Source of the DNA: Thermoflexibacter ruber
GTDB lineage: Bacteria > Bacteroidota > Bacteroidia > Cytophagales > Thermoflexibacteraceae
Assembly: GCF_900113045.1 (NCBI RefSeq)
Contig: NZ_FONY01000019.1
Coordinates: 32,722-96,721 of the forward strand
Direction of reading: 5' to 3'
Length of the DNA: 64,000 nt
Position 1 is the first letter of the stretch. Every line of letters starts with the position of its first letter. The notes below the pieces were generated by a model. That model ran no database searches, was not told where the DNA came from, and worked only from the letters and a program-made list of their open reading frames with translations. A program made the translations under genes and the position numbers. Positions 3 to 1,217 of this stretch are shown one piece after another.

Positions 3-812
3 GGCTTGTTAGATGCGTACTATTTGCGCAAAGAGGAGGAGGTAATAGAGTTTACTAACCGCTTGTCAGCCAGCGAAGTAAGTGAGGAAATAGCAGAAGT
101 AGAGGCTGTTTCCATAGATTTGTTAGATGCTTATTATTTGCGCAAAGAGGAGGAGGCGAGAGAGATTGAGTATGTAAAGCAATTAGCTGTTTTTGAAAAC
201 CTAACAGAAGCAGACTTTTTAGCAAATAACGATGGAAGAGAAGAACATGAAAGTAGTACCTTGTTAGATGATTATACTTTGAGAAAAGAGGAAGAAGGAC
301 AAGCATACCAAGAGATGAATGGTCATCTTGATTTTTCTCCCCAGTTTGATGAGGAGCTATCTGATGAGGTAGAGAAAGACAATTTATTGACGGATACTTC
401 TATTTATTTTTCAGATGAAGATGTTTTAGATGTGCTGAGTCAAAAGGAAATTACAGCGGAATTTGATACAACGAACTTTTTTGATGAACATCAACAAGAG
501 CATACACCAACAGTGATTAAACCTACTTATAAAAAATCTTCGCAAGAATACCAGCGAAGTATTATCGACCAATTTATTAAAGAAAGCCCTACTATTCAGA
601 TAAATAGAGAGAGGCTCAACGAGCCAAGCATAGACCTTGCAGAGGAGAGTACAAAGGAGAATGAACGAGCTGCTTCTGAGTTTTTAGCAAAAATTTATAT
701 CAAACAAGGAAATAAACAAAAGGCTATTGAGATTTATCAGCGATTAAGTTTGAAAAATCCAGAAAAAAGTAGTTACTTTGCACTCCAAATTGAAAATCTG
801 AAAAACTCATAA
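3..812 (+). CDS. TPR-containing protein with repeated LLDAYYLRKEEE motif (5' end outside window)
   Basis: The reading frame is open to the left edge of the window, so the true start lies upstream; the TTG at position 6 sits inside the first repeat. The visible part is very acidic. It carries three copies of a short motif, LLD(A/D)Y(Y/T)LRKEEE, encoded at about 6-41, 120-155 and 261-296. The last 50 residues (AAEFLAKIY-like helix, then GNKQKAIEIYQRL and a NPEKSSYFA turn) look like a C-terminal tetratricopeptide repeat. It lies 48 bases before secG in the same direction, so the two are probably cotranscribed. TPR proteins next to secG are familiar in Bacteroidota, but I cannot assign a function. 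The repeats may be linear binding motifs (inference). Confidence 0.75.
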   Translation, partial: GLLDAYYLRKEEEVIEFTNRLSASEVSEEIAEVEAVSIDLLDAYYLRKEEEAREIEYVKQLAVFENLTEADFLANNDGREEHESSTLLDDYTLRKEEEGQAYQEMNGHLDFSPQFDEELSDEVEKDNLLTDTSIYFSDEDVLDVLSQKEITAEFDTTNFFDEHQQEHTPTVIKPTYKKSSQEYQRSIIDQFIKESPTIQINRERLNEPSIDLAEESTKENERAASEFLAKIYIKQGNKQKAIEIYQRLSLKNPEKSSYFALQIENLKNS

Positions 813-860: not shown

Positions 861-1217
861 ATGACAGGATTAATTATCGGTGTAATCATCGTAGTAGCGG
901 TGTTACTAATTTTAGTGGTTTTGGCACAGAATCCTAAAAGCAGTGGAAGTGCAGGTGGATTGGCTTTCTCTGGAGCAAATCAGCTAATGGGTGCAAAGCG
1001 CAGTGCAGATGTTTTTGAAAAATTAACTTGGGGATTTGCTATTACTATCATGGTGCTTGCTTTGACTGCTAATATCGTGATAGAAAAACCAGAAGCAGGC
1101 GAAGGTTTCTCAAGCCCTAACGTAGAGGCAGCAAAGGAAAAATCTACTCTTCCCTCAACCACTACAGACACTACCTCTACTTCTACACCTACCATTACTA
1201 TAGACAGTGCAAAATAG
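861..1217 (+). CDS. secG: Preprotein translocase subunit SecG
   Basis: SecG is the small non-essential subunit of the SecYEG inner-membrane translocon. The 118-residue product has two membrane helices, at about residues 2-22 (LIIGVIIVVAVLLILVVLAQ) and 55-73. Between them is the conserved glycine-rich cytoplasmic loop with SSGSAGGLAF and GANQLMG. The C-terminus, from about residue 80, is an extra tail rich in Ser, Thr and Pro, common in Bacteroidota SecG and probably disordered. The gene follows the TPR gene closely and ends at a hairpin terminator. Family assignment is confident. Confidence 0.93.
   Translation: MTGLIIGVIIVVAVLLILVVLAQNPKSSGSAGGLAFSGANQLMGAKRSADVFEKLTWGFAITIMVLALTANIVIEKPEAGEGFSSPNVEAAKEKSTLPSTTTDTTSTSTPTITIDSAK

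Follow-up and report, generated by a model that had tools for sequence, protein, structure and literature searches.

A lineage-specific array of putative docking peptides in the acidic linker of a TPR-like protein from Thermoflexibacter ruber

Introduction

Disordered scaffolds that carry repeated short linear motifs are a described class close to the protein considered here, and the TPR fold, which its ends resemble, is often peptide-binding. The gene family itself has remained without a name in the libraries searched, and a literature search returned no paper recognisable as being about it. Published reference points come from P. gingivalis, in which PGN_0260 is the best match to LptE (PMC3684754, in the part available) and PGN_0261 is a sigma-54-dependent regulator (PMC4082711, likewise in part). 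Given these two assignments, PGN_0259, a name with no occurrence in the literature searched, may be the P. gingivalis member of the family.

Here, we analyze a gene whose tail lies at the left edge of a 64,000-nucleotide stretch of Thermoflexibacter ruber DNA (the window) and compare it with its counterparts in two congeners, G001 and G002 (three genomes for the genus), and in the surrounding family, order and phylum. We use X as shorthand for the gene and the protein that have window positions 3-812 as their tail. An initial annotation, made from the window alone, had read this tail as part of a multivalent docking scaffold with a possible envelope or export role. Our comparison suggests a soluble adaptor, with lineage-specific arrays of putative docking peptides in its linker; judging from sequences, we give this reading a probability of about 0.5.

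Results

The features of the locus are listed below in window coordinates, except for the first, which lies upstream of the window.

L004:6221-7427, N-terminal part of X, 402 aa (P0002), before a run of 295 N
3-812, plus strand, C-terminal part of X, an open reading frame with open 5' end, 269 aa plus stop
6-41, plus strand, motif copy LLDAYYLRKEEE, the first visible after the N run
120-155, plus strand, motif copy LLDAYYLRKEEE
261-296, plus strand, motif copy LLDDYTLRKEEE
474-485, plus strand, NFFD, one instance of the linker motif [SND]FF[DE] seen throughout the family, read in translation
543-809, plus strand, conserved C-terminal TPR-like domain of X (IIDxFIKxxPxI ... SExLAxIYxxQGxxxKAIxIYxxLxxKxPEKSxYFxxQI)
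861-1217, plus strand, secG, downstream of X and its neighbour in most loci examined, not in the two congeners

The acidic region with three near-identical motifs described at the left edge is real: the first 160 residues of the window part of X contain 28.7% D/E and carry a net charge of -34, the motif copies are spaced by 38 and 47 residues, and the best motif score in this part of the linker was reached by 0 of 1000 shuffles (p 0.001). X begins with a TTG codon at L004:6221 and is interrupted by the run of 295 N, which ends one base before the window (window position 1 is L004 7723). Since a run of exactly 295 N would put the two halves in different frames, either the length of the run is inexact or the gene is broken; most likely, the repeats led to a gap in the assembly here, in which further motif copies may lie. 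The upstream copies that had been suspected were found when the preceding sequence was read, three of them before the N run; with the three after it, the visible total for this genome is six. In both congeners, X has the same architecture and its stop-to-stop ORF is uninterrupted (799 and 828 aa), with eight copies each of the consensus LLDxYYLRKEEE.

X belongs to a family found across the Bacteroidota. Its C-terminal part was matched at E 0.001 in 35 of 39 relatives (a count that includes the window genome) and in 13/13 family, 63/69 order and 244/247 phylum genomes, of which the weakest may be generic TPR matches, e.g., three of the 63 in the order (G029, G288 and G301; E 4e-4 to 9e-4). The C-terminal domain, recognisable by IDxFI ... 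SExLAxIY ... PEKSxYF, occurs in all 13 family genomes as it does in the window. An N-terminal module (YPYFQ ... DRxxL), searched with the N-terminus of P0002, is present in the same ORF at 84 of 93 non-redundant loci (of 101, eight were duplicates); N runs or contig ends truncate several of the other nine. Five genomes of another family, f2 (L307-L311), have either no detected X or matches of E 7e-4 to 9e-4 in frames of more than 600 aa; their secG has neither X nor lptE as a neighbour.

The neighborhood of X is old and widespread. Counting stop-to-stop ORFs on one strand at non-redundant loci with room for the neighbour, secG adjoins X in 85/89 (within 300 bases) and lptE in 79/88 (within 1400 bases, which allows for cut ORFs). 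By lineage, secG follows X in 68/68 loci outside the order, 8/9 in the rest of the order and 9/12 in the family, and lptE precedes it in 68/69, 6/8 and 5/11, respectively, the loci outside the order being mostly Bacteroidales chosen as best matches. Of 20 other genomes sampled widely, 7 had secG within 300 bases and 10 had lptE, some of the matches possibly not being X. The window genome follows the common arrangement, with X between lptE (PF04390, E 2.7e-13) and secG. In both congeners and in G003, X is not beside secG; the congeners have secG on another contig, with no lptE within 1.5 kb of it on either side (X of G001 is not beside lptE, and the G002 contig ends 240 bases upstream of X). 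The synteny with secG is therefore old for the X family but has not been kept in the repeat-bearing congeners. Since this neighborhood belongs to the gene family and is not required for the repeats, the export or envelope role that the annotation had drawn from it is unsupported for them.

Two further observations concern the surroundings of the gene. A TPR histidine kinase lies just upstream of the LptE-less X in G001 (L035:952-2985) and G008 (L042:2422-4584), the two kinases being 24% identical to each other. In the window, positions 1296-1973 encode, convergently to secG, a protein with leucine-rich repeats and a hydrophobic N-terminal stretch.

Scans of X against Pfam and NCBIfam gave only sub-cut-off TPR or stray weak matches and no family model of its own, and among 50 homologues one matched anything. 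The TPR announced at the left edge thus survives in a weaker form: a TPR-like match covers residues 223-262, but its best model, TPR_19 (E 7.7e-5), scores 23.4 bits against a curated cut-off of 25, and TPR_2 in a congener scores 23.2 bits against 27. Because these models stay below their cut-offs, we call X TPR-like, a term that also fits the N module (best Z 8.3, for an arrangement common in general). A PDB sequence search returned mainly TPR-type chains, the best being a designed TPR (E 1.8e-6); Foldseek gave no match at E 0.001 or better, and Rfam none. In an AlphaFold model of the full G002 protein, both ends are confident (76-92 in ten-residue blocks at the N end, 92-96 at the C end), 538 of 824 residues fall below 50, the blocks of the array range from 29 to 71 and the pTM is 0.22. 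A low-confidence helix covers seven of the eight motif copies, with one helix 76 residues long. A short homologue is similarly modelled at 90 or more in residues 1-80 and 211-250, its linker being unsure. Low model confidence and composition suggest that the linker is disordered, and inspection by eye, which revealed no signal peptide, suggests that X is cytoplasmic.

For most array units, the spacing in G000 and G001 is 38 aa, within a range of 32-47 and with 53 to a degenerate copy; in G002, the spacing is 47 and 33 aa, and the spacers are unlike between these classes. At the DNA level, G001 contains a 114-bp tandem unit (96% matches) and G002 units of 99 and 141 bp; a tandem-repeat scan of the window's X gene reported no array of the motif. 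The near-identity of copies 1 and 2 in the window was confirmed, with 2 of 36 bases differing. Recent duplication, which had been suggested by this pair, applies to the spacers of neighbouring units but not to the array as a whole, since the 22 motif copies of the genus have accumulated many synonymous differences (pS 0.77).

The DNA pattern D-x-[YF]-x-[LF]-[RS]-K-E-E has 6, 8 and 7 matches in the genus's three genomes, every one of them in X, and its reversed control has 0. Whole genomes were searched within the family, and X alone outside it. In the ten other family genomes, neither DNA pattern nor profile located the strict motif in X; three DNA matches occur there, none in X by coordinates, those of G006 and G010 in an ORF no shorter than 1009 aa and the third in G011. 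Among the 13 family genomes searched, the LRKEEE repeat in X is thus confined to the window's genus, and its core, far from being absent in all close homologues or varying freely, is kept in all three genomes. The profile gave p 0.017 for X of G008, with two look-alike copies 40 residues apart, WDDVHAIRKEEE and LDDIHEVRKDEE (L042:264-2207), which are possibly a decayed or diverged form of the motif. G012 gave p 0.029, and the other eight non-genus family linkers p at least 0.079. Outside the family, 4 of 75 linkers had p <0.05, about the chance expectation.

To compare the motif with its spacers, we used the 22 copies that a protein scan (KEGE also allowed, the degenerate G001 copy excluded) yields in the three species. 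Seven motif positions are invariant; for D3, L7, R8, K9, E10 and E12 this is partly by construction, as the text pattern already demands them, and only Y5 was left partly free. When a profile was run over these proteins, the 22 copies scored 32 or more, followed by the degenerate G001 copy LLDTYETQKEET (15.5) and a chance-like window (0.7). No other sequence separated these from the background, so the text pattern had missed little. Over all pairs of the 22 copies, pS is 0.774 and pN 0.080; with the two weaker windows included, the values are 0.795 and 0.125, so that motif pN/pS is 0.10 to 0.16 overall. In the flanking 20-residue stretches, pS and pN are about equal (0.62-0.69), a crude, ungapped figure that appears mostly to reflect unrelated flanks.

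A comparison of tandem units of one class in register (four classes, 13 units) is fairer. In the motif, 36.0 synonymous and 20.0 non-synonymous differences fall on 108.4 and 467.6 sites; in the spacers, 46.8 and 82.2 fall on 275.8 and 963.2 sites. The resulting pN/pS is about 0.13 for the motif and about 0.50 for the spacers, from pairwise copy comparisons that are not independent. Changes within one unit class are few: the four G001 units show no motif change, synonymous or non-synonymous, and the two G002 classes have more synonymous change in the motif than in its spacers. Purifying selection on the motif is stronger than on the spacers, as a multivalent scaffold would have it.

Elsewhere in the family, the linker of X repeats a different short motif. 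[SND]FF[DE] occurs in X linkers of all 13 family genomes (L004, L035-L046) with 41 copies, compared to 0.62 expected and a maximum of 5 in 500 shuffles. In G004, SFFE is part of a 78-bp tandem unit, and in G007 the variant SFFH is part of a 90-bp unit adjoined by FF[DE] copies. Outside the family, the motif is present in 2 of 43 order members (those with both X and FtsZ read), and none was seen in 71 loci outside the order (linkers of <20 residues skipped). These latter loci have FxxWL in 5 of 71 X linkers against 0.02 expected. SFxEWL-like words were also noted in X of other families, in 4 of 20 further genomes (L257, L258, L262 and L260). Different lineages thus seem to keep or amplify different aromatic motifs in this linker.

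Discussion

We interpret X as an adaptor in which two small TPR-like end modules, presumably peptide-binding, would flank a long acidic linker that is probably disordered and keeps them apart. The window's genus would have lengthened this linker into a series of short docking peptides, prone to form helices and recurring every 32-47 residues, which would let a single X molecule bind several copies of one partner. Among the linkers compared, this array is the clearest example of such a display. The multivalent docking scaffold originally predicted fits the conserved core and variable spacers seen in 3/3 genomes of the genus. Spacers have been exchanged around a core that persists, which points to selection acting on the peptide, and the low pN/pS of the core relative to the spacers supports a functional docking motif that would bind a protein. 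Weighing against this reading are the small number of changes within unit classes, the excess of synonymous change in the G002 motifs, the degenerate G001 copy, the absence of the strict motif from X in the ten other family genomes and the low confidence of the modelled helices.

The array might instead be a mere spacer that grows and shrinks by recombination, its motif copies being alike through youth and concerted evolution and having no binding role. True tandem units at the DNA level in both congeners, the likeness of spacers within one unit class, and unrelated tandem units in the same linker of other genera all speak for such turnover. Young copies, however, would rarely show either kind of change, and the motif copies show many synonymous and few amino-acid changes, also between species and between unit classes with unrelated spacers; we therefore consider a pure spacer unlikely. 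Alternatively, the repeats could be structural, with helices that pair mutually or with the TPR-like ends of X and drive self-assembly without a separate partner. The helix modelled over most G002 copies and the TPR-like nature of both ends are compatible with this, yet the array is modelled at low confidence, and the C module is phylum-wide whereas the motif was not found in X outside the genus, which makes self-assembly rather improbable in our estimate.

A third proposal is that the motif mimics the FtsZ tail (IPAYLRK) and gathers division proteins. YLRK is common to the motif and to FtsZ of the same genome (KEIPAYLRKKVELK), and FF[DE] occurs in both FtsZ and X in 9 of 10 family genomes with both read (FtsZ loci L136, L142 and others). 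These genomes form one clade, so the co-occurrence is not independent evidence, and with 313 genome-wide matches of the FF[DE] DNA pattern against 228 in the control, the motif is too common for much to be read from finding it in one protein, FtsZ for example. Outside the family, 43 genomes include two with the FF motif in X only, two with it in FtsZ only (one with a truncated X) and none with both. By motif profile, the FtsZ ORF ranks 20 of 122 same-genome ORFs read, its tail windows scoring -2.2 at best, and an alignment on LRK places the conserved Y of the repeat opposite an FtsZ alanine. Neither profile ranking nor co-occurrence of FF[DE] across the order supports the mimicry, which we regard as highly improbable.

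The docking-array reading invites a more tentative extension, which we think doubtful as it stands: the X linker could be a platform for evolving valency, on which each lineage of the family multiplies docking peptides of its own, with LRKEEE in the genus, SFFE in G004 and SFFH in G007 tuning how many copies of a partner are held. If so, X would be the hub of an undescribed Bacteroidota-specific envelope-biogenesis or division network. A phylum-wide gene that adjoins lptE and secG at most loci examined and lacks its own model in Pfam and NCBIfam is a good candidate for a core Bacteroidota process. The genus-specific arrays are ready-made peptide baits and a natural multivalency experiment, and the conserved motif core points to residues that should matter for the putative binding.

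Among known systems, the FtsZ C-terminal conserved peptide has YLRK in common with the repeat, but the register and the flanking conserved residues differ, and the resemblance is not above background. X of the window shares both end modules, the variable linker and the usual position in the operon with the two-domain, TPR-like lptE-secG family; it differs in the LRKEEE array, found only in the genus among the family genomes searched, and two of the three genus genomes depart from the family in having X away from secG. With disordered scaffolds built on repeated short linear motifs, X is alike in its conserved core, variable spacers, change of copy number and acidic low-complexity context.
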